Part shown: piece by piece, positions 3,039 through 63,954 of the stretch
How the letters are laid out: every line of letters begins with the position of its first letter
Position numbering within the stretch: the stretch's first letter is position 1
Source: Gordius sp. MW1
Lineage: Eukaryota > Nematomorpha > Gordioida > Gordea > Gordiidae
Direction of reading: 5' to 3'
NCBI GenBank assembly: GCA_964036665.1
Contig: OZ038527.1
Location: 22,539,901-22,603,900 of the forward strand
Length of the DNA stretch: 64,000 nt
The notes under the pieces: model-generated
What the model saw: only the letters and a program-made list of their open reading frames with translations
Databases searched by the model: none
What the model was told of the DNA's origin: nothing
Program-made: the position numbers and the translations under genes

Positions 3039-5087
3039 ATGCCAAGAATGGATGAGCAACTGAAAAGAATATCAATGGCTGAATTTAATCCAGAAATTCA
3101 TTCAATTGTACAATTTAGATGCCATCCTAGACATAAAAGGAATTAAATCTAGTTTAATAGTTAAAAAGAAGATAGTTGTGGCATACATAGGATTACCAAT
3201 AATCAAGGAACTGAAAGAAATTTTATATCCCATGACTTTAAATGATGCAAAATGGGAATATCTTGAAAAGGCCTTATATCAAAGATATCAACCAATGAAA
3301 ACTATTTTTGCTCATAGGTTAGATTTGATGAACTTAAGCAGATTGCCTGGTGAAAGTATTTTAGAATTGTCAAAAAGAATTAGAATATGCTTAAGTAAAT
3401 GTGCATACAAGCATGACTTTGATGAAAGAGCCCGAGATCATTTTATCTTTGCCCTTAAATTTAAACAACTAGAGATGGAACTTAAGACAAAATATCCTGA
3501 TACTCTAGATGAGGAAGGCAAGCCCCTTACGTTTGAAAGAATAATAAATATGGCTTTATGTATGGAGAGAGCTGAAGTAGAGACAAATGGTGATTCTGAG
3601 GAAAGACTTTGTAAACTAAAATATGACACTAAGAAATAGGTGAATGATCACAACAAGAATGATAACAAAACATTATTTAAATGTTCAAGGTGTCTAAAAC
3701 AACATGCAAAATTTCGTTGTCCAGCCTTTACAGCAACATGCTTCAGATGTCAAAAGAAAGGTCATTTAGCTATAGCTTGTCGTAGTGTATTCAATCAAAT
3801 GACTCTCGAAAATGATAATGATGATTCTGGTGATTCTATCAAGCGTGTATGTCAATTATCTAAACGAGCCACAATAGAGGTTTAATTAAATGGTCAAAAT
3901 TTCATAATGGAATATGACACGGTAGCTCAGATTAGTCTTATCAACCTTAAAATGTGGAAACAAATAGGCAGACCCAGATTGACCAAATGTATGTCTCCCA
4001 AAGCTTATGGTAACCAACCAGTAGAAACGCTGGGCAAAACATTATTAAATGTCCAGATGGGGAAAATTAATCATAATTTGACAGCTGTGGTTACAAAGAC
4101 AGATGATGTCCCCTTGTTTGGATTACCATGGATTATAAAATTCGGGTTAAATATTCCACAAGAAGTAAAAATTCATCAAAAAAATAGATGCAACAAGTCC
4201 GAAGTTCCACTGTATTCGTGGAATGTAACAGAACAGCCTGGGGAACGTATACATATGGACTACGCGGGTCCCATAGATGGATATTTTTGATGCATAGCTG
4301 TTGATTCATATTCAAAATGGGTCGAAGTGCAGCTACAAAATAGCTCCACCACTACAACGACCATTAAAACCATGCCCCAATGGTTTGCAAGATGGGGAGT
4401 TCTAAAACAGATTGTTACAGACAACGGTCCTCAGTTTCGAAATTATGAAATGGAACAATTTTGCAAATCTTTGAACATAAAACACATCAGATCTACGCCA
4501 TATCATCCAAAAACAAATGGATTGGTGGAAAGAGCTATTAGAACTATAAGGAGCGGATATCAAGCATGCAGGGAATACACCAAAGATCCCGAGTCATGTA
4601 TGCTTGACGTGTTGATGGGGTATAGAATCAGTGAACACTCAGCAACTGGGAGAACACCGTCGAAAGTGATGATGGGGAGAAACCTAAAAACGTCACTCGA
4701 TTGGATACAACAACAGTCGGCAATTACATAAAACAAAAGACAGAGAAAAGTGAAAACAGGCAAAGGGACAAAGCTGTTACCAGAGAGTTTATTCCAGGTC
4801 AGGCTGTATGGGTAAAAAATGAGATCAAAAAAGGATGGCGGCTGGGGAAAGTCCTTAAGCGAAATGGACCTTATTCCTACGTGGTCGATACGATGAATAG
4901 AACCGTGAAAAAGCATAGTGACCAGCTAAGGGAACGATACCAGCCAACCAAGAATGTTAGAGAAGAGAGCGATGACGAAATAAATTGCGATGACGAAGGT
5001 GTTGAAGATATCGTTACAGAAAGCACAGGGCCTCGAAGGTCAAATCGAGAAATACATCCTCCTAAGCGGCTTATTCAAGAAATTTAG
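3039..5087 (+). pseudogene. Gypsy gag-protease-integrase remnant lacking RT and RNase H
   Basis: Most of the coding remnant lies in one frame (3106-4731), broken by in-frame stops at 3637, 3883 and 4288. An earlier ATG at 3039 joins it through a frameshift near 3105. A further frameshift near 4715 leads into 4701-5087. Order: gag (3106-3639); a CCHC zinc knuckle, CFRCQKKGHLAIAC, near 3750; a degenerate aspartic protease region (YDTVAQISLI near 3910, LFGLPWI near 4115). It then jumps directly to integrase: MDYAGP near 4257, TDNGPQF near 4420 and NGLVERA near 4518, a D-35-E spacing for the last two acidic residues. A C-terminal chromatin-binding-like tail follows. About 2 kb of pol (RT, RNase H, integrase zinc finger) is missing between protease and integrase. 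Confidence 0.88.
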
Positions 5088-6814: not shown

Positions 6815-9800
6815 ACACTACCAACGACGGTCCCATCCGTGTTCAAAAAGTGGAGGGTTGGCGTCAGGTGGGAAACCGGCTGTAAAAAACCTTTTCCAAA
6901 TTATGACAGTTTCTAATAATAAAGTGCAACAAAAGAAAGGGCATCCTCTCCAAACGACGCGCAGTGCATCATCCGCTCGTGCAATGCGAAAAATTTACCA
7001 GGGTTACCGCCTGACTCACAACGAAAGCGGTTAGGGAATCTAGTTGTGGACAAATTACGGGTAGCAAGCTGGAACGTGGGCACGCTGACGGGGAAAAGCA
7101 TTGAGGTCGCACAGATGCTCAAAAGATGAAAGATACACATCGCTTGCCTGAAGGAAACGAGATGGAACGGAACAAAGGCACAAGAGCTAGGAGAGGGTTA
7201 CAAGCTATTTTACAGCGGGTCACCCACAGGTCGAAACGGGGTCGGTATCGTTCTCAGCGAATTTTTCCAGGACAAGGTTGTTGAAGTCAAAATATGCTTA
7301 GATAGGTTTATGTTGGTTAAGATCGCAGATCAAGGTGGCCTCCTAACCGTTGTTTGTGGCTACGCACCACTAATTGGGTGTTTGGAATCCGAAAAATACA
7401 CCTTCCTCGAATCATTGGAAAAAGAAATACAAGGAATACGACAGGAGGAAAGGCTAATTATTGGGGCAGACTTCAACGCCCACGTGGGAAAAGACCGTCA
7501 AAATTACGAAAGAAATCATGGAGGGCATGGGCATGGCATGAAGAACAAGGAAGGAGATAGACTTCTACCAGTTTCCCAAGCATATGACATGGCGATCGTT
7601 AACACTTATTTTCAGAAACGTGAAGAACATATCGTGACGTACAGAAGTGGGAAGCGGTTTAGTCAAATTGATTATCTGCTTATACGACGAAGAGATTTAA
7701 GGACGATTAAGGACTGCAAAGTAATACCGGGAGAAGAAATCGCCAGGCAACATCGGCCACTGGTCATGAATCTTGAAAGAAGAATATTTCCCGAAAGGAG
7801 AAAAGTTTATGAGCCCCGAATCAGGTACGAAAAGCTTGAGGATATGACAACAAACGAAAAATACCATCAGAAAGCCTCTACGTTGTTTAATGCCAAGACT
7901 CTGGAACGGAACGTGAACGACAATTGGACAATGATCACCGCTCATCTAAAACAAACGGCCATTCAGGTGTTAGAGCAGACCAAAGGGGGCAAAGCGCTGA
8001 ATAGAGAACTATGGTGGTGGGACCAATCCGTTAGAAACATCATCGAAACCAAGAAAGCGCTATATAAGCGGTGGCATATATCAAAAAAGTCGGAGGATTA
8101 TCAAGATTAAAGGAGGCAAAAAGTTCTGCTAAGAAGGCGGTTGCCATAGCGAAAAATACGGCGTACACAGAGATGGCCAACAAACTCGATCAAAGAGGGG
8201 GTGACAAGCTTATGTACAAATTGGCCAAGATAAGGGAGAAGAAAGGTCGTGACGCCGGGGTACTTAAAGTAATCAAAAATTCAGAAGGTCACACATTATT
8301 TAAGCCAAAGGAGGTGTTGGAAAGGTGGAAAGGATATTTCAACGAGCTCATGAATGTTGCAAATGACAAAGAACCCCTTCCCGATATAGAGCCTAACATG
8401 AATATGGTCGAACTATTTCAGGAAGAAGAAGTTAGGGTACAAATGAAAAAGATGCAAAAAGGAAAAGCTAATGGACTAGACGGAATTCCGTTGGAAGCGT
8501 TGGTAGGGTGCAGGGAAGAAGGAATCACGACTATGACGAAGCTATTCAACAAGATATTGGCCGAAGAACGCATCCCTGATCAATGGAGACAAAGCACGAT
8601 CATACCCATATTCAAAGGAAAAGGAGACCCTCAAGATTGTGGTAATTACAGAGGCATCAAGCTGACATGCCACTCCTTGAAACTGATGGAAAGAATCTTA
8701 GTAGCAAGGTTGAAGACGGAGGTGGACATATCGACTAACCAATTTGGTTTTGTGGCCGGTAAATCCACAATCGACCCGATCTTTGCGCTAAGACAAGTTA
8801 TGAACAATTATGGAGGGAAAAGAAGGAATCTACACATGGTCTTCATAGATTTGGAGAAATATGACACGGTTCCCCGCGAATTGATTTGGTGGTGCTTGAG
8901 AAGACAGAGCATCTCGGATGCATATGTACGGCTAATCAAAAACATCTATGAAGCCTCAACATCGTACGTTCGAACGACAGTTGGAGAGTGTAAGCCCTTT
9001 CAAGTCAATATTGGTTTACACCAAGGTTCTGCCCTAAGTCCGTTTCTATTTAACGTTATTATAGACACGATAACGAGGGACTTACAGAAGTCATCCCCTT
9101 GGTGTATGCTATATGCCGATGATATAGTATTATGCGAGGAAAATAAGGATATCGTATTAGAAGAAGCCGATAAGTGGTTTAAACGTTTGGCTAGATATGG
9201 GCTCAAAGTCAATGACCGAAAGACGGTATACATGGAGATGAACGCAGAAGGCACACAATCGATGAATGAACAATTGAAATTTCCAAGAGTTGACAAGTTT
9301 ACGTACCTCGGCTCGATGCTGCATCAAGAGGGAGGTTGCGCGAAAGAAGTTAATGCAAGAATTCAGAAGGGATGGTTAAAATGGCGTAGCGTATCCGGAG
9401 TAATGTGTGACAAGAAGATGCCAATATGGTTGAAGAGTAAAGCTTCAAATCTATCGTAAGACCGGTATTACTCTACGGAAGTGAAACATGGGCCTTGAAC
9501 GCGACCCAAGAAAAACTATTACAAGCGACGGAAATGAGAATGATACGCTGGAGCTTGGGATACACAAAGTTGGACCATATGACGAATGAAAGTCTTAGAG
9601 AAAAATGGGTATTCAGCCAATAGCCGACTATATTAACTGAAATCGGCTAAGATGGTATGGGCATATCTTGAGAAGAAATGCGAGTGACGTCAATCGAATA
9701 GTACTAGACATGGAAGTGCCGGGAAAAAGAGGAAGAGGTCGACCTCGTGGTACCTGGAAAGGACAAGTGGACAAAGTTATGCTCAATAAGAAGATCGATC

Positions 9801-26628: not shown

Positions 26629-27360
26629 TTAATGTAGTTCATTAGGCCTTTTACTCGATGTTGCAAACGAATTTATAATATCATCTGGGGGAATAACATT
26701 TATAAAGTCATGTTCTAAGCTCAATAAAGCTAAGGAAGATAACCTATCTTGTCCAATTGTGGAACGAAGATAAATTTTAATCCTTTTAGCAATGAAAGAT
26801 CTTTCGCATGAACATGAAGTTATTAAGATAGTTAAAATTATTTTATTCAAAATAATACAATTTGGAAACCCGACTGAGGGCAAAATCTTAATAAGTGAAA
26901 AAATATCATTGCACTTTGTTTTATTTGAAGATAAAAGGTTATAATGTTTTACAAAAAATTTTGCCATTTTTATTTCCCCGTCTTCCAGATTTAATTTATA
27001 ATGGTTAATTATTTCAAGAGATTTATCGCAAAAAAAAGGGGATGAAGGGTTTAAATTCTAAAGACTTAAATATTACAATTAATTTCCAAAAATCTTATGT
27101 TTGATTCTGCTATTATTCTACCGATGATAGGATAATATAAATCAATTTTGAAATCAATTAATGAATTAGTAGATTTAAAAGAGTAAAATGTGTCATACTT
27201 TTTTAGTTTTTTAATACGTTTAGAAGGTAATAAATCAAAAATTGCAGCTAAATCTTTTGCCTTATTATAAAGAATTTGATAGTGGTCCTCATTTCTAATA
27301 TCATTTAAAGTTTATTAGGCTATTAACCGTTGTAATTGCATTTATTAAACAAATATTTGG
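26629..27360 (-). pseudogene. hAT transposase C-terminal dimerisation domain, degenerate
   Basis: The minus strand 26967-26629 encodes 112 residues with TSCSCERSFIAKRIKIYLRS and QDRLSSLALLSLEHD. This is the hAT C-terminal dimerisation signature (ZMYM-type subgroup). Upstream (27000-27360) the frame is broken by indels, though short matches continue. The ORF's own start Met is probably not the original start. It is non-functional. Confidence 0.8.
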
Positions 27361-30366: not shown

Positions 30367-32065
30367 TTGATAATGTCCGATGATAACGAAGATATCGAAT
30401 ACGATATAGTAATAGTGCCACCGTCTGACGAAGAAGAAGGGAATGATAATGATTTGATATCCTCGACTTTTCTCAGAGATGTTCCTGGTACAATTGAAGT
30501 AAATCCACGTCACCCCGACCATGATGTTTCTGACTGGGACTACAGTGATAAAGAACCACTTTCTAATCACATAAGACTATCAAAACGAGCTAAAAGTCAA
30601 GATTTAAAAAATTGTTATTATAAATAAAAGAAATACAGCATACCCATACTGTTACCGAAGCCATTCAAAGCAGACAAAAAAATATTGTAGAATCAATGAT
30701 TGATCACAATCATACAATGTTGTTTGAAAAATTCTTTGATAAGGATGTTATGGACTTGATAGCAGAAAATAGTGTTTTGTACGCAGGACAAAATAATCGC
30801 CATAATTTTGAATTAAATTGTGAAGACTTGAAAAGTTTTTTGGGAATATTGATGCTAACTGGATATCATGAATTGCCTGCCGAACGTGTGGAGTTTGTAT
30901 GAAGATCTTAGAGTTCCATTGGTCGCAAATTGCACGTCGCGTAATAGGTTTTTGGGCATAAAAAGAAACTTGCACTTCGTCGATAATTCTCTAGCTGCAG
31001 ATTCGACTAATAAAATGTTCAAAGTGAACCCGTTATATAATCTCATTCAGAAAAATTCGTGCCAGTGGGGAGTCTTTCATAAAAATTTGTCTGTGGATGA
31101 GTCCATGATTAAATATTTTGGCCGTCATTCAGCGAAACAATGGGAAAACCCGTGCGATCCGGCTATAAGAATTGGGCTGCAACAAGCTCTAATGGCTACT
31201 GCTACACATTCGATGTTTATTGCGGCAAGTCATCTACTGATATTCCTCTTGATCCTCTCGGCGCGAGAGTCGTAAAATCTCTGCTGGCAAAGATGCCGAT
31301 TGTCCCAAGTGAGCATATAGTGTATTTCGATAACTTTTTCACGAACTATCAATGATTTGACTTTTGGGCTACAGGGCCACAGGCACAATGCGGGAAAATA
31401 GAACGAAGAAATGTCCACTCAGCACTTTAAAAATGATGAAAAAGCGACCCAGAGCAGAATATGATTAACGATTTGATTTGAAAAATGAAATATCAATTGT
31501 ACGCTGGAAAGACAACAATGTAGTCACTATAGGAACCAACTATGACACTATAGAGCCTCTGGGAAAAGTAAAAAGATGGTGCAAGCTTCAAAAGCAAAAG
31601 GTGGAATTTGATGTCCCAAGTCTAATAATAAACTACAACAAAGGAATGGGTGGCGTCAAACAAATGGACCATTCTATTAGTATTTACAGAGTGCTTATAA
31701 AAGGAAAAAAATGGTGGTGGGTAATATTTACCTACATCCTAGATATGGCCATACATATCTAACGCTTGGAGACTGCATGTTTTACTCAGCAAGACTGGAC
31801 AGGTGACATACATGGATCAATTATTATTCAGACAAACGATTCCTCGAGGATACATACAACGAAAAAAAAACTAAAAGTCGTCCACCGTCATCAACAATAC
31901 TTGGACTGGAGCGGAAAAATAACGGTCACAACCCCGAGCGCATCGAAAAACCCTTGCGTTGCGTCATTTCAATCGAGGTCGCTGGCGTTGCGTGCCTCGC
32001 GAGACGTTGTGTGTAGAGCGAACTTGCTTTGGACAATATCACTCCTTATCCGCCCATTGTACACG
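30367..32065 (+). pseudogene. piggyBac transposase, multiply frameshifted
   Basis: Fragments run in order across several frames. They are an acidic N-terminus (30367-30627, DDNEDIEYDIVIVPPSDEEE), 30696-30902 (LFEKFFDKDVMDLIAEN, LKSFLGILMLTGYHELP), 30868-31275, 31140-31355, 31478-31762 and 31766-32068. The three catalytic aspartates of the DDD transposase core are visible: LSVDESMIKYFGRHS near 31090, VYFDNFFTNYQ near 31325 and GGVKQMDHSISIYR near 31655. At least four frame changes plus stops make it inactive. In the original enzyme this core cuts and pastes at TTAA. Confidence 0.9.
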
Positions 32066-34736
32066 TAGTGTTGTAAAAAACCAAGGGTTTCTATTGGTCG
32101 CCTGCAAGCGTTGACGTTTATTTTCACCCAGCCTTATCAGTGTTAGGTGAATTTTCTTGGGAGAGCTTTGGCGTTTGGCGTTTTTGTAAAAAAGACCTAA
32201 AGCGTTCTGGGAATGTTTCGGGGTGACCTTTGGCGTTTAGGTTTGTGTGTGTTAAACACCTAAAGGGTGTGGGTGGATAATATTATTAACCTTTTGGTTT
32301 GGTTTTGGTCGTTTGGGGTGGGGCATGCAAATATATCAATTTTAGGTAATAAACTTTTAATTTAAGAAAATAAAAATAGTTATATCATGACGTCACTGAG
32401 TTTAAACTTTTCCCATTGTGACGTCATAATGAAAAGTATTATAATTTATAATCTAATCTCTAGTAAATTATAGTTAATTATTATGCTTTGCTTATGCTGC
32501 ATTATAGAAGTAGTGTTTTATTTATAAAAAAAAGATGGCTAAAATCCGTTTAATGATTTCAAAAATTATTTTTTAGACATGCCAAAAATTTATAAAAATT
32601 TATAAAAGGTGGGAAATTTCGCTTTGTAGAATCTTCTATATAGATGGCTAAAATCTGTTTATTGATTTCAAAATTTATTTTTTAGACATGCCAAAAATTT
32701 TATAAAAATCTATAAAAGGTGGGAAATTTCGCTTTATAGAATATTCTATAAAGATGGCTAAAATCTGTCTAATGATTTCAAAATTTATTTTTTAGACATG
32801 CCAAAAATTTTAAAAATTTATAAAAGGTGGGAAATTTCGCTTTGTAGAATCTTCTATATAGATGGCTAAAATCTGTTTAATGAATTCAAAATTTATTTTT
32901 TAGACATGCCAAAAATTTTATGAAAATTTATTGAAATATATATTTTTGAATTTTCTGCCTCAGGTTTGCTCTAATTATAGGCCTAAAATTTAAACCACTT
33001 GATCAAATAGGCAAATTAATATATTAATGAACGTATAAGAGTTGAAATATTATCCTTGCAAATTTTGACAAATTTATATTATAAAATATCTAAGTTATAA
33101 CTATTTAAAGTTTGGGTTAATTCTAATTATTACCCCAAATACCATCCGTGTTAGCATTTTTGACCCAACCTCTCAAGTGTTAAGAAAATAAATAAGGCAT
33201 TTCCAAAAAGCATATCATGCTATTCTGTTGACTTAGACCTAGCGTTTACAATGCTTATAAGGATCATAAAAAATATATAGCTACCATATGTGCTCGGACG
33301 CATAAGCTCTGTCATAAAGAGGGGTAAAATGCTGAGATTAAGGAATATTAATTAGCTTGTTTATAACTTTACAACTAAGCTTAGCAATACGCTGGGAAAA
33401 ACCAGCCAGCCGTTTTTACAACACTACTACAAATATAATATAAAAGGGACATTATATAACTAATAAGTCTTTATCTTTTACAAGAGCCGAGGAATTCAAA
33501 ATATATTTGAAATTAAATTTTGTGATTAATCGCAATTAATCTGCTTAGCAAATGTGTAAATTACAAAGTTAAACCATATTAAAATGTTCAAAAAAATTGT
33601 TATCACCTGGCTGAGGCAGAAAATTCAAAAATATATATTTAAATAAATTTTAATAAAATTTTTGGCATGTCTAAAAAATAAATTTTGAAATCATTAAACA
33701 GATTTTAGCCATCTATATAGAAGATTCTACAAAGCGAAATTTCCCACCTTTCATAAATTTTTATAAAATTTTTGGCATGTCTAAAAAATAAATTTTGAAA
33801 TCATTAAACAGATTTTAGCCATCTATATAGAAGATTCTACAAAGCGAAATTTCCCACCTTTTATAGATTTTTATAAAATTTTTGGCATGTCTAATAAATT
33901 TTGAAATCATTAAACAGATTTTAGCCATCTTTATAGAATATTCTATAAAGCGAAATTTCCCACCTTTTATAAATTTTTATAAAATTTTTGGCATGTCTAA
34001 AAAATAAATTTTGAAATCATTAAACAGATTTTAGCCATCTATATAGAAGATTCTACAAAGCGAAATTTCCCACCTTTTATAAATTTTTATAAAATTTTTG
34101 GCATGTCTAAAAAATAAATTTTGAAATCATTAAACAGATTTTAGCCATCTTTATAGAATATTCTATAAAGCGAAATTTCCCACCTTTTATAGATTTTTAT
34201 AAAATTTTTGGCATGTCTAAAATAATTTTTGAAATCATTAAACAGATTTTAGCCATCTTTTTTCATAAATAAAACATTACTTCTATAATGCAGCATAAGC
34301 CAGGCATAATAATTAACTGTAATTTACTAGAGATTAGATTATAAATTATAATACTTTTCATTATGACGTCACAATGGGAAAAGTTTTAACTCAGTGACGT
34401 CATGATATAACTATTTTTATTTTCATAAATTAAAAGTTTATTACCTAAAATTGATATATTTGCTTGCCCCACCCCAAACGACCAAAACCAAACCAAAAGG
34501 TTAATAATATTATCCACCCACACCCTTTAGGTGTTTAATACACCCAAACCTAAACGCCAAAAATCACCCCGAAACATTCACCCAGAACGCTTTAGGTCTT
34601 TTTTACAAAAACGCCAAACGCCAAAGCTCTCCCAAGAAAATTCACCTAACACTGATAAGAATGGGTCAAAATAAACGTCAACAACTAAGCTTAGCAATAC
34701 GCTGGGAAAAACCAGCCAGCCGTTTTTACAACACTA
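32066..34736. mobile_element. 2.67-kb foldback element with TAGTGTTGTAAAA ends
   Basis: The outer arms (32066 to about 32560 and 34240-34736) are near-perfect inverses of about 0.5 kb. Inside each arm are tandem units of about 108 bp beginning GATGGCTAAAATCTG (four on the left, about six inverted on the right). A unique centre of about 0.65 kb follows. The terminal TAGTGTTGTAAAA resembles the hAT at 39474 (TAGTGTTGTAAATG). Exact 8-bp flanking duplications were not found (TGTACACG versus GGACACAG). An extra copy of the terminal 55 bp lies at 33371-33426. It carries no coding capacity. Confidence 0.85.
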
Positions 34737-59373: not shown

Positions 59374-62300
59374 TTAGTTTTATTAGTACTCTCCTGGAAC
59401 TTTTCAATCGACATATACAACACTATTAATAATGCAATTAAAAATTTTCAATTTTGCGTGATAGTTTTGGCTAATATTAGTAAGTGGCATCTTCAAATTA
59501 CACCTAGCATACAGTATTTCACCCCCAAAACAAATATATTTGTCTTAGGGGATTTTAAAAACAATCAACTGGACCAAAATAGATTGAATACCTTTTTTAT
59601 TTACTTCTATGAACAGAAGTCCCTTACCTTTCTGCAAAAATATGGTAAGGCTATTTTCATATTAAATGATATTATATAATAAAATAGCTCCACAATTAAA
59701 TTACCTACATGTTGTTTATCAGACGCCTTAAAATTTTTTTAAATTTAAATAAAACACAATAATTCTTTTCTCAATCTTTAAATAAGAACAGCTAAAGTTT
59801 TTTTATAAAATATTTCTACTACATTATATATTTAAGATAAGAATACATATTAAAATAAAAATACTATCTTAGATCATAGACTAAATTGTAAGTTTTCAAT
59901 TAATTTTGAAGATACCCATAATAATCAATTTACAATATAATACAGGGCTCAGTCATGAATTCTCAAAATTATGTAAATAAAAACCCATATTAAAATAAAG
60001 CGAATTCCTCATTTATTAAAAAAAATTATTTTTTTTCAATAATTTAGACGCCAACGGCAACGATTCAAGTTAAAATAAGCTAATTTATAATTATTTCGTC
60101 CAAACTTTTGAAGAGTGACGTATAATAAATAAATTTTGAATTTATAATAGATTATTTAGAAATTCTTGCGACGCGTAAGTACCTAAACTTAAATGTATGA
60201 CTTTTACTAATTCTCAGGCTCGAAAAATATAATTTGATGAAATCTTATTATTTGGGCTATATAGAATTTTTATTAATCTATTGAAATAAATAATAATTAA
60301 ATCTTAAATTACAAATTTATTTTTTGAAATCTCCAGTAAACATGTACAAATTTGGCGGGAATTTAATTTACAAAAAAATAATTTCTATCTTAACCATCTC
60401 ATTAAATTCTTAAGTTTTCTACTTTCAAAACATTGTTATAAAAATCGTAAGGCATATTAATCACATGTTTATATAAAAATTGTTATTAAAGTTATAAGTT
60501 AAATAACAAATTATTTTATCTGCAGATGATTTAATCGAAAACATTTATGAAGAACGTAAAAGTAAATAAATATTACTTGAATTATATAAAACATATTTGA
60601 ATAATGTAATTGATTTTGTGTTTTAAATACAATAGATTCTTCAAGTAAAAACATGATATATTGTGGAAATTTCAAAAAATTGAAAACCAATAATATATAT
60701 TTTAATTTTATGAACCATAGTACGGATAGTTAAAGGTTTATTTATACAATTTATCATAAAAAAGATGTTTAAAATAACTTTCTAAATAACGGTTAAAAAA
60801 CCAAATAATTAAATGATTTAGTACTAATAATAGCCATTTAAAAATAAAATGAAATTTACTTAGAATTATTTGGTGAGTACAACTTAGAAAAATATATAGG
60901 AAACCAATCGAAAAGACTTCAAAGTAAACTTAAGACTAATCAACTTAAAATCAGTTAATGTGTTTATTTAGATATCAAAAACATATCATTCAATGACCCT
61001 ATTTCTAAGGATGATGGTACATAACATAATATTAATCTATATTAAACTTATTAAGCACTTATAATTTGTAGGTTTATCAAAAGTATAAAAATGTTGCAAA
61101 AAATTTGTTTTTTTATTAATATAAAAAAACGACTTTTATTCTATACAATATAAATTTTTTATTATATTTTTTTGCAGGATTTCACATGCAACGATCTGCC
61201 ATTCAGCACAAAGTAAACTTTATAAAAATATTTTAATTTAATTTTTTTCATTTGTTTTAGATCAAAGCATTCGTATTTGTAAATGTAAGACAAAATTATA
61301 TATTTTGTATAAAAATTAATTAAAAAATGGATATTTGTTAATTACTTGTATAATATTGTTGTGACAAATAGAGCCCTGCACGGCCCGGCCCGTCCGCAGG
61401 GCTTGGACAGGCTTCTTGTTAAAAATAAAACAACGGGCCGGGCCTGGACGGGCCAATATATAGCAACGGGCTCGGGCCGGGCCTAGTTATACTTAAGGCC
61501 CGTTTAAAAAATTAATTAGATTTAGTATAAAAGAAGGTGTTTTATAATGTTCTAATTTATAATTTTTATGCATATTAAATTAACAAGGAAAGTTAAGTTT
61601 CTATCCTAGTTCATTAACTCATCAATATATCAAACCGCATTATAAATTTATACACGTGATCCCGTGGGCGGAGCCAATTTAAATTAGATGGGGGCATAGC
61701 AAAAAAATGTTTTTTTCGTTAAGAAAGGATTTGGAGGGGCACTTGCCCATTCTTGCCTCCCCATTTATACCCTCTAGCAATATTGAGTGAATTAATTTAA
61801 TATTATTTAAGATTATTTATAATTGCTATGCAATTTATGGCCTCGCTTTTGGTAATCTATCCTGTCCTGTCCAACGTAATTTTTCAATAATTTTTATGGA
61901 AACTTATACGGGTTTTTAATGGCTGTGGACTTATGTTTTTGTAAAAAAACTTTTATATTGCTGACCGCTGATTGGCTTTACTTTTTTCGACCTCGCCCAA
62001 GCTCAAATTCCATTATTATTTTTGTGCCCGACTGATTACCTTTATTAATGAATTTCTTTGGGCAACTTATCTAGGTTGTTGCTATATATCGGATAATTGC
62101 AAAACTGGCTATAATTCCCTGCGAATTAATACTAACCGTTGTTTACAGCTATTTGTCTGACCCGTCCAGAGGCCACAATTCTGGTTAATTCCGATTTATA
62201 TTTGCTGCTTTGTGAATTTCTTTTGGCAATTTGTCTAAGTTGTTAATGTTAATAATGGATGAATGCAAAACTGGCTAAATAATTCCCTGCAAATTATTGC

Positions 62301-63954
62301 TGGCCGTTGCTAGCTTCTACTTTATCTGATTCCGGCCAAATGCCAAAATTTATATACTCATCATCATTAACAAATTCAAAAACAAATTCTAAAATTTATT
62401 TCTTCAAGTTACTTTTATCACTGTTTTTTCATTTTATATCAATAACCTAATTATTTAAAATGGTGGAAAAGGGAAGAAACCAAGTAACTTTATTAAAAAC
62501 ATTGAAACCTTAAATAAGGGTTTTGAAAGTTTATTTGGCTTATAAGGTTTTATATATCCTGAAGTGTCACTTGTACTAGGTCGTCTTAAAAGATAGAACT
62601 CGAGTGACCGCGAATTACCAAATAATTATTTTTACAACATCTTTATTAACATTTTGAACACATACATATTGTTTACCAAAAAATTAAAAAAAAAGATAAA
62701 AAAATTTACGGGCCCGGACGGTATTTATATAGCCGGGCCCGGGCTTATAAATTAATATTTTCACGGGTTCGGCCCGCTAAATTTATACAAAGCCCGAGCC
62801 CAGCCCGAGCCCGTAATTTTTTTTTAATTTTTTTTTATTTTTTTTTATCGATATGGTAAACAATATGGATGTGTTAAAAATGTAAATAAAGATGTTGTAA
62901 AAATACTTAATTGGCAATTGGGCCGGGCTGGGCTTTTAAATTTATATTACGGGCGGGCCGACTGACCTAAACAAGCCTGTTGCAGGTCTTTAGTAACAAA
63001 TATGTTTTATAAATAAGCATTTTAAAGTTTCTGGCCAAACGGTAAGAGATATCCCTAACATTTAAAATTCTAACATGCTATTATAATTGACCCAAACCTC
63101 TATATAATATGTGCTTGTTGAATATCTATTTCAAAATAAAAGAAGCCTTTTGAGTTTTTTGATACACAATATGTAAATCCTATTTATATATTGTTACTAT
63201 TTTGTGTTGTTAGGGGACAGAGTTGATGTTATATAATTAAATTAAACTTAAATTCGCACAAACTTATTAAGTTAAAATAAAAAGCTGTTGTCAAATTTTT
63301 AGATCTTTTATGTAACGGTAAGGTTATATTAAAAGATTCATTTAAAACTGCAGAAAAAGAAAAAATTTCGCTTTATTAATAGATAAATTTAATGATAATA
63401 TCAATAGATTAAAATAATAAATTCAATTAAAACTTTATATTTCTACATATATAAAACGCTAAAATTTTGCTTAATATTTAGATTTGAAAGAATTTGTGAA
63501 ATCAGCCAGTAAATGGGATTATTAATTTATTACGTTAATATATGTATTTAAAATGCTTTAAATGAAAATTTAAATGTTTGATTAGGTAGAACCAATCAGA
63601 ATAACTTTAAAGCTGGTAAATTAAATTTCGGAATTGAATTTAAAAAACAATATTAAAAAAGGATGACTAAATTTTACTTTTAATTTTTTATAGTATTAGG
63701 TGAGTTAACGATACCTAATAAATTATATTTCTTGATAATTAAATAATTTTACCATTATAGAAGCCATCAATAATACATTTGTCCAGCGTAAGTTTTTAAT
63801 GTAAAAACTTGAAATTTTAAGCTGTAAATGTTATTTTTGCATAATAAAACTTCTGAACACATAAAACTTTAACTTTTAATTTAAGTTTAAATATGTATTT
63901 TGAATCATAGAGTTTTATCATGCAGCAAAAACTGCAATAAACAAAAATGACTAA
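59374..63954 (+). CDS. candidate micro-exon gene, about 20 short exons, 5' end unresolved
   Basis: I do not recognise the product. Exons (AG before, GT after): 59374-59644; 59873-59887; 59946-59972; 60048-60068; 60160-60174; 60526-60561; 60636-60644; 60721-60735; 60864-60923; 60972-61016; 61072-61082; 61178-61212; 61261-61278; 63028-63041; 63303-63317; 63482-63508; 63586-63615; 63694-63699; 63761-63787; 63911-63954 (stop TAA). Sixteen of the nineteen introns are phase 1, and the joined frame has 246 codons without a stop. Donors include GTAAGT, GTGAGT, GTAAGG and GTAAAT. Introns are 48-351 nt, except one enlarged by a hAT. The first segment opens with LVLLVLS, like a signal-peptide core, so a start exon is expected upstream. 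Exons 61072-61278 are ambiguous: another consistent path exists through 63214-63221. The large first segment might instead be a LINE endonuclease scrap. Confidence 0.55.
61369..62992. mobile_element. TAGAG-type hAT element (1624 bp) inside an intron, GTRACAAA duplication
   Basis: Flanks are GTGACAAA (61361-61368) and GTAACAAA (62993-63000). Ends are TAGAGCCCTGCACGGCCCG and TGTTGCAGGTCTTTA, with GGCCCG-rich patches near both ends. No transposase is seen. Another inverted GC-rich pair lies at 62580-62960. It is inserted between exons 61261-61278 and 63028-63041 of the candidate micro-exon gene. Confidence 0.85.
61822..62140 (+). mobile_element. element sharing the GCTATGCAATTTATGG start, nested in the hAT
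   Basis: It aligns with the minus strand of 41579-41376 plus 39465-39340. It shares the first 20 or so bases with the Helentron-like family and then diverges (GGCTGTGGACTTATG, ATATATCGGATAATTGC). It is probably a second non-autonomous family using the same terminus. Confidence 0.55.

Follow-up and report, generated by a model that had tools for sequence, protein, structure and literature searches.

The window analysed here is a stretch of 64,000 nucleotides from the horsehair worm Gordius sp. MW1 (C1:22539901-22603900, in an assembly of 211.8 Mb and 12 contigs), and about 323 kb around it was read. Close to its right end lies gene W, a plus-strand run of very short exon-like pieces that continues beyond the window end, and six further genes of the same build are found on the minus strand within 160 kb downstream. 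On balance W appears to be one divergent member of this clustered multi-micro-exon family, whose transcripts would be spliced and whose proteins would be secreted and, more tentatively, host-directed.

For detection, every AG...GT piece of 6-75 bp was scored with simple, approximate splice-site weights, which were not trained on this genome, and symmetric open pieces were linked into chains on both strands and in three phases. Phase 1 denotes a codon completed by the first two bases of the exon, that is, an exon starting at codon position 2. Between 59301 and 64000, ten non-overlapping symmetric pieces open in phase 1 scored at least 2.5, against a maximum of five among 400 Markov-3 simulations of equal length, which averaged 1.8 symmetric phase-1 candidates per 4.7 kb. 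The chain score of W was 47.1, while the best chains of 60 simulated 64-kb windows averaged 14.6 and did not exceed 26.3; the runner-up chain in the window, at 22.0, is a tandem repeat of one 33-bp piece. A core list of 14 exons was drawn up, ten in the window (60151-63787, 6-45 bp, GT-AG) and four beyond its end. It differs from the ten scored pieces at four places: 59873-59887 and 59946-59972, for which no paralog partner was found, are absent from it, and the weaker 60636-60644 and 60972-61016 were taken in because both have partners in a paralog. With the transposon-bearing intron excluded, the core exons have a GC content of 30.3% and the introns 20.7%, matched by 7 of 5000 random intron draws. 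A sequence-only reading of this DNA had described serial GT-AG micro-exons with lengths divisible by three, held in one open phase and less AT-rich than their introns, and that description is upheld. The exons of W and the features between them, in window coordinates and with partners in the type-1 paralog A, are as follows.

59946-59972, plus strand: candidate micro-exon outside the core list, 27 bp, phase 1, LSHEFSKL; splice scores 2.9/0.3; paralog partner not found.
60151-60174, plus strand: micro-exon, 24 bp, phase 1 at both ends, YLEILAT; splice scores 1.8/4.8; no equal-length paralog partner at that place.
60526-60561, plus strand: micro-exon, 36 bp, DLIENIYEERK; partner is a 36-bp exon of A, BLOSUM score 17.
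60636-60644, plus strand: micro-exon, 9 bp, SS; a 9-bp exon stands at the matching place in A, residues unlike (BLOSUM -3); acceptor weak.
60972-61016, plus strand: micro-exon, 45 bp, IKNISFNDPISKDD; partner IKNVTFPYPISTDR of A, BLOSUM 38; donor weak, 0.1.
61178-61212, plus strand: 35-bp segment with the strongest acceptor of the region (7.4); phase broken; the paralogs have a 36-bp piece at that place.
61261-61284, plus strand: micro-exon, 24 bp, QSIRICK; partner ESISLCL of A, BLOSUM 18.
61369-62994 (limits approximate), no strand assigned: dispersed transposon-like repeat within a 2018-bp intron; among 40 candidates scored, many matches of 70-94% identity, spread over 8 contigs.
63303-63317, plus strand: micro-exon, 15 bp, LLCN; splice scores 2.5/4.4; counterpart in A not seen.
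63482-63508, plus strand: micro-exon, 27 bp, LKEFVKSA; partner LKEKIDRA of A, BLOSUM 16.
63586-63615, plus strand: micro-exon, 30 bp, RTNQNNFKA; partner LTLQSNIKA of A, BLOSUM 21; not found in B or E.
63694-63699, plus strand: micro-exon, 6 bp; splice scores 4.5/6.1; a 6-bp piece at the matching place in A, B and E, with weak donors there.
63761-63787, plus strand: micro-exon, 27 bp, AINNTFVQ; partner AINDTFIA of A, BLOSUM 28.
64191-64205, 64377-64409, 64465-64488 and 64538-64552 (extended coordinates beyond the window end), plus strand: continuation exons, in frame.

The repeat in the largest intron of W, about 1.6 kb long, carries inverted-repeat arms near one end. Several details of the sequence-only reading were not confirmed. 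Its first exon, starting at 59374, is open, reaches phase 1 at its end and is followed by a fair donor at 59480, yet it holds no in-frame ATG; no DNA match between this segment and the paralogs appears among the matches listed, its peptide not having been compared. The piece at 60048-60068 has a very weak donor (-3.0) and no paralog partner at that place, and the 61178-61212 segment, which had been given as an example of a less AT-rich exon, breaks the phase with its 35 bp. The TAA at 63952-63954, taken before as the gene end, is probably not that end, because in-frame exons continue across 64191-64552, one of them with a paralog partner.

The six further genes were found in the roughly 323 kb read. 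They fall into two types, three genes each, and alternate along the minus strand of C1; within each type the first exon is shared.

Type 1, minus strand: gene A starting at 22651940, gene B at 22691494 and gene E at 22745092.
Type 2, minus strand: gene C starting at 22675990, gene D at 22713769 and gene F at 22758283.

Along the direction of transcription the order is F, E, D, B, C, A, so that a unit of one type-2 and one type-1 gene is present in three copies. First exons of type 1 read MRLVIKITLIFCALV... or MRLLIKITLIFCALV..., those of type 2 read MNFLFANFYVLLCAPLLSK or MNFWFANFYVLLCAPLLSK, and all supply a hydrophobic leader and end in phase 1; likeness to a signal peptide was judged from hydropathy. 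A single giant gene spanning the cluster was considered and dropped, because a signal-like first exon of its own is seen in every unit. Over 12.8 kb, model A comprises 26 exons, of which 24 are internal, 6-45 bp in length with a mean of 27 bp, 27 bp being also the commonest length; in the type-2 models the internal exons number 21 and measure 9-51 bp. Internal micro-exons (about 21-24, of 6-51 bp), symmetric and in phase 1, form most of the modelled coding region. N-glycosylation sequons number six in A and three in C. Protein searches of the genome with A and with C returned seven matches each, all inside the cluster. Transposon-like stretches with matches at many genomic sites lie in the introns of B and C; the micro-exons around them are still open.

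Evidence for coding comes from comparison among copies, each of which is open across the compared exons. For type 1, 23 exons were compared, namely the first exon and 22 of 39 candidate rows, with overlapping and weak rows excluded. Over 646 sites the three pairs show no insertion or deletion (indel) and 3.4-5.7% substitutions, while the introns carry 57-93 indel events and 4.8-11.3% substitutions. For type 2, 25 exons of C were sought in D and F and 22 were retained; among these the number of length differences is 0 for C-D, 2 for C-F and 2 for D-F, each of 3 bp. Flanking intron, over about 2800 sites, shows 36-75 gap events. Type-2 divergence is 4.8, 12.7 and 12.0% in the exons and 8.8, 15.6 and 13.6% in the flanking introns. 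For the three type-1 pairs the ratio of nonsynonymous to synonymous differences (pN/pS) comes to 0.66, 1.29 and 0.49; for those of type 2 it comes to 2.0, 0.81 and 0.92. The counts are small (25 nonsynonymous and 3 synonymous for C-D), and fast protein evolution is supported in both types by these sequence comparisons. Ordinary genes of this genome are built differently: the median length of 49 exon-sized CCT segments is 186 bp and the shortest measures 78 bp, although short exons are under-detected by the CCT segment search.

Gene W was tied to the cluster through paralog A. Nine of its 14 core exons pair with exons of A, order and length being kept (36, 9, 45, 24, 27, 30, 6, 27 and 33 bp), and the 33-bp exon sits beyond the window end. 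In the paired exons 31 of 70 residues are identical, and the summed BLOSUM score of 147, compared with a mean of -42 (standard deviation 19) after within-exon shuffling, was reached in none of 20,000 shuffles, odds that are overstated because the pairs were selected for order, length and likeness. In a nine-by-nine matrix of W and A exons the true partner ranks top for all seven exons of at least 24 bp and does not for the 9-bp and 6-bp exons. The phase-1 frame holds no stop in either gene, while the remaining frames hold 12 and 21. The first, second and third codon positions agree at 0.59, 0.66 and 0.47, lowest at the third, and the adjacent intron control gives 0.36. At the DNA level, nothing better than E = 0.036 was obtained for W against A, B and E among the matches listed, which reach about 61.8 kb of the window, and in each of two transposon-free DNA searches the sole match of W was W itself. 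A peptide search with pieces of W did not recover even W, and therefore the genome-wide lack of distant members shows nothing. The shared exon order, frame and many lengths are consistent with W being a divergent, perhaps incomplete, type-1-like member of the family.

Homology searches placed the animal and left the proteins without relatives. COX1 on contig 12 (14,798 bp) is 95% identical to that of Gordius sp. VVA-2019, 87% to Gordionus alpestris and 81 and 80% to two further gordiids, with arthropods at 67%; by this gene the source is a horsehair worm (Nematomorpha), and an aphid, scale-insect or fluke origin of the DNA was rejected on the 95% identity to Gordius. COX1 matches in the genome number 24; 23 lie off contig 12 (on C1, C3, C4, C5 and C8), and three of these are below the family cut-off. 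The match at C8:2829490 is nearly full length and its stops are only TGA codons, and mitochondrial DNA recently copied into the nucleus is therefore its probable origin. Within the sensitivity of each search, neither type 1 (227 candidates) nor a type-2 profile (2969 candidates) found a homolog at E <= 1 among 5.8 billion proteins, a database in which the inclusion of nematomorph nuclear, bicycle or micro-exon gene (MEG) proteins was unchecked. Pfam gave nothing above its cut-off (best 0.12 and 0.012), and in PDB type 1 had no match while type 2 had six weak ones, none convincing, the best being fibrinogen alpha chain at E 0.015.

Elsewhere in the window, the following transposon-like elements were seen.

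7130-9459 and 107-1755: non-LTR (long terminal repeat) retrotransposon copies in opposite orientations, RTE-like; reverse transcriptase confirmed by Pfam for 7130-9459.
3064-5087: apparent fragments of an LTR-type element, with an integrase core domain at 4291-4731.
26629-27057 and 30859-31275: fragments with a hAT dimerisation domain and a DDE_Tnp_1_7 transposase (Pfam).

A minus-strand run at 33748-34216 was rejected as micro-exons, being a head-to-tail repeat whose unit includes a 33-bp exon-like piece and so mimics such a run. Outside the window, 13 symmetric pieces in phase 1 form a weaker run on the minus strand at C1:22441676-22448742; its score, 27.2 in 158 kb, barely exceeds the maximum simulated for 64 kb, and it is partly retroelement-like.

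The family as a whole is best read, from its genomic sequence, as orphan, secreted and rapidly evolving, and as convergent with the MEGs of schistosomes and the bicycle genes of aphids. In the proposed mechanism, a pre-mRNA of about 8-13 kb would be spliced from about 25 exons into an mRNA whose coding part measures about 0.8 kb, and the type-1 product, of about 260 residues, would be secreted and probably N-glycosylated. Since the internal exons are symmetric, the reading frame would survive the skipping, gain or loss of any one of them, and such frame-neutral skipping or turnover would therefore vary the protein by a few residues per step. The proteins might then act outside the worm, most likely on the arthropod host, which is the weaker conjecture, drawn from analogy. 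Going further, horsehair worms may have evolved independently a cluster of orphan, secreted, fast-evolving effector genes of serial single-phase micro-exons, in which splicing and exon turnover tune the protein; this is offered as a tentative proposal, somewhat short of even confidence.

Several observations count against this interpretation. The gene models derive from genomic sequence, and the host-directed role is argued by analogy with MEG and bicycle proteins. A, B and E have in common two stop-bearing candidates for the last exon, of 110 bp and of 59-62 bp, and the type-1 models use the latter although the acceptor of the 110-bp candidate is stronger; for type 2 no last exon is settled. 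The 45-bp exon of A and E has a different reading in B. Relatedness between type 1 and type 2 was not detected (hhalign probability 0.1). Exons in both type comparisons were selected as open and alignable, which biases the comparisons in their favour. The exons of C that were excluded include one of 45 bp that becomes 55 bp in D and 60 bp in F, one of 6 bp that has no GT donor in F, and one of 21 bp that becomes 25 bp in D and does not map to F. The proteins used later also leave out a retained 39-bp type-2 exon, which puts a stop at a junction in C and in D. W itself raises a specific doubt, since its stop exon is unsettled among seven downstream candidates and its 35-bp segment, at a place where the paralogs carry 36 bp, breaks the frame, so that it may be a pseudogene. 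No convincing start exon was found for it, the only signal-exon candidates in the 20.5 kb upstream being the distant 42324 and 47700; five of the 14 core exons are without an equal-length partner, several splice sites are weak, and a transposon sits within an intron. That the family is real and W a decaying type-1 pseudogene thus carries appreciable weight, if less than the reading of W as a family member. However, at 31 of 70 identical residues the divergence is old, and still the nine paired exons retain splice sites, length and open frame; third codon positions are the least conserved, in pairs selected with length in view, and transposons occur in the introns of other copies as well.

That W is a chance run of AG...GT pieces is next to impossible. 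AT-rich DNA does yield such pieces, as the simulated mean of 1.8 attests, but the number of pieces and the chain score in the window lie above the simulated maxima, and, because the exons pair one by one with those of paralogs, chance is very unlikely. A more substantial question is whom the proteins serve. The signal peptide and sequons indicate no more than secretion, and reproductive proteins likewise evolve fast and duplicate in tandem, so a role in the worm itself (cuticle, gut or reproduction) must be weighed against one in the host. It is rated as less likely than not: the best-known classes with such architecture, MEG and bicycle proteins, are thought to be secreted and host-directed (PMC9168663, PMC4350168), and arthropods are the hosts that horsehair worms parasitise (PMC10380579), both arguments being by analogy. 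Descent from bicycle genes, whether by horizontal transfer or from an older origin, has only a slim chance. Exon phase and size are alike, and the structural generalized linear model of Stern and Han, given one of the two last-exon candidates, is passed with logits of 16.8 (A) and 16.3 (E), the published cut-off probability being 0.72 (PMC9168663); that classifier sees structure alone and cannot separate descent from convergence. Against descent stand the nematomorph COX1, hence another phylum, the lack of any match at E <= 1 in a database whose bicycle content was unchecked, and the absence of the CYC motif, no Tyr-Cys pair occurring in A or C; coccid and phylloxerid bicycle homologs are described as likewise being without obvious CYC motifs.

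The preferred reading, a convergent orphan family, can now be set beside the known systems. The sequence-only reading had likened W to Schistosoma MEGs and bicycle genes and had supposed a fast-evolving, secreted product. The likeness and the fast evolution are borne out, and secretion is favoured by the hydrophobic first exons of six paralogs, while the LVLLVLS segment on which it had been based has no ATG; membership in either family is not supported, and the other suggestion, an independent family, fits best. According to PMC4350168 and PMC10526429, schistosome MEGs have exons mostly in multiples of three, of 6-81 bp, with few cases having one or two exceptions, and, like the cluster genes, they combine tiny symmetric exons making up most of the coding sequence, a signal peptide, fast evolution and a parasitic bearer. 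In model A 24 of the 26 exons are internal and 6-45 bp long, and an N-terminal signal peptide is predicted from hydropathy in A, B, E, C, D and F; none was found for W. MEGs differ in belonging to another phylum and in having most exons of 15 bp, against 27 bp as the commonest length here. No relation to MEG families emerged, with 0 matches at E <= 1 in a database whose MEG content was unchecked, and type 1 is without tryptophan, so the motif described after the signal peptide of MEGs cannot be present.

Pea aphid KQY/KHI genes (PMC7495047) are likewise large and divided into miniature exons, and their products keep the secretory signal while the remainder diverges. KQY1a has 33 of 37 exons of at most 15 bp, against 3 of the 24 internal exons of model A, and KQY loci are mostly scattered, whereas the horsehair-worm genes are clustered; exon lengths and the nematomorph genome thus set the latter apart from this aphid family with exons mostly <= 15 bp. 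Among the literature searched, with most subscription papers outside its reach, no report of micro-exon genes in Nematomorpha was found among the papers listed, so that novelty is unproven; one paper that touches on both subjects deals with a gene family of another kind. Standard annotation may miss such genes.

A further parallel is offered by the bicycle genes of aphids, phylloxerids and coccids, and also the megacycle genes, which resemble the cluster in phase, N-terminal signal and rapid divergence. According to PMC9168663, they have about 17 exons on average, and the first base of nearly every internal exon stands at codon position 2, as it does in all 24 of model A (mean 27 bp), a match that is partly by construction because the models were built from symmetric phase-1 candidates. 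They differ in belonging to Hemiptera and in the CYC motif, and have no homolog here; saposin-like folds are described for their proteins in PMC13041983. Blood flukes and sap-sucking bugs are already known to have genes of serial symmetric micro-exons whose products are secreted and evolve fast. If the reading is true, horsehair worms would add a third, unrelated parasite phylum with the phase of the bicycle genes, and candidate secreted proteins would be in hand for a phylum famous for host manipulation, possibly molecules for handling, perhaps steering, arthropod hosts. As a third case of a recurrent solution, they would argue, in a way that can be tested, for this gene structure being itself of advantage to proteins that face a host.

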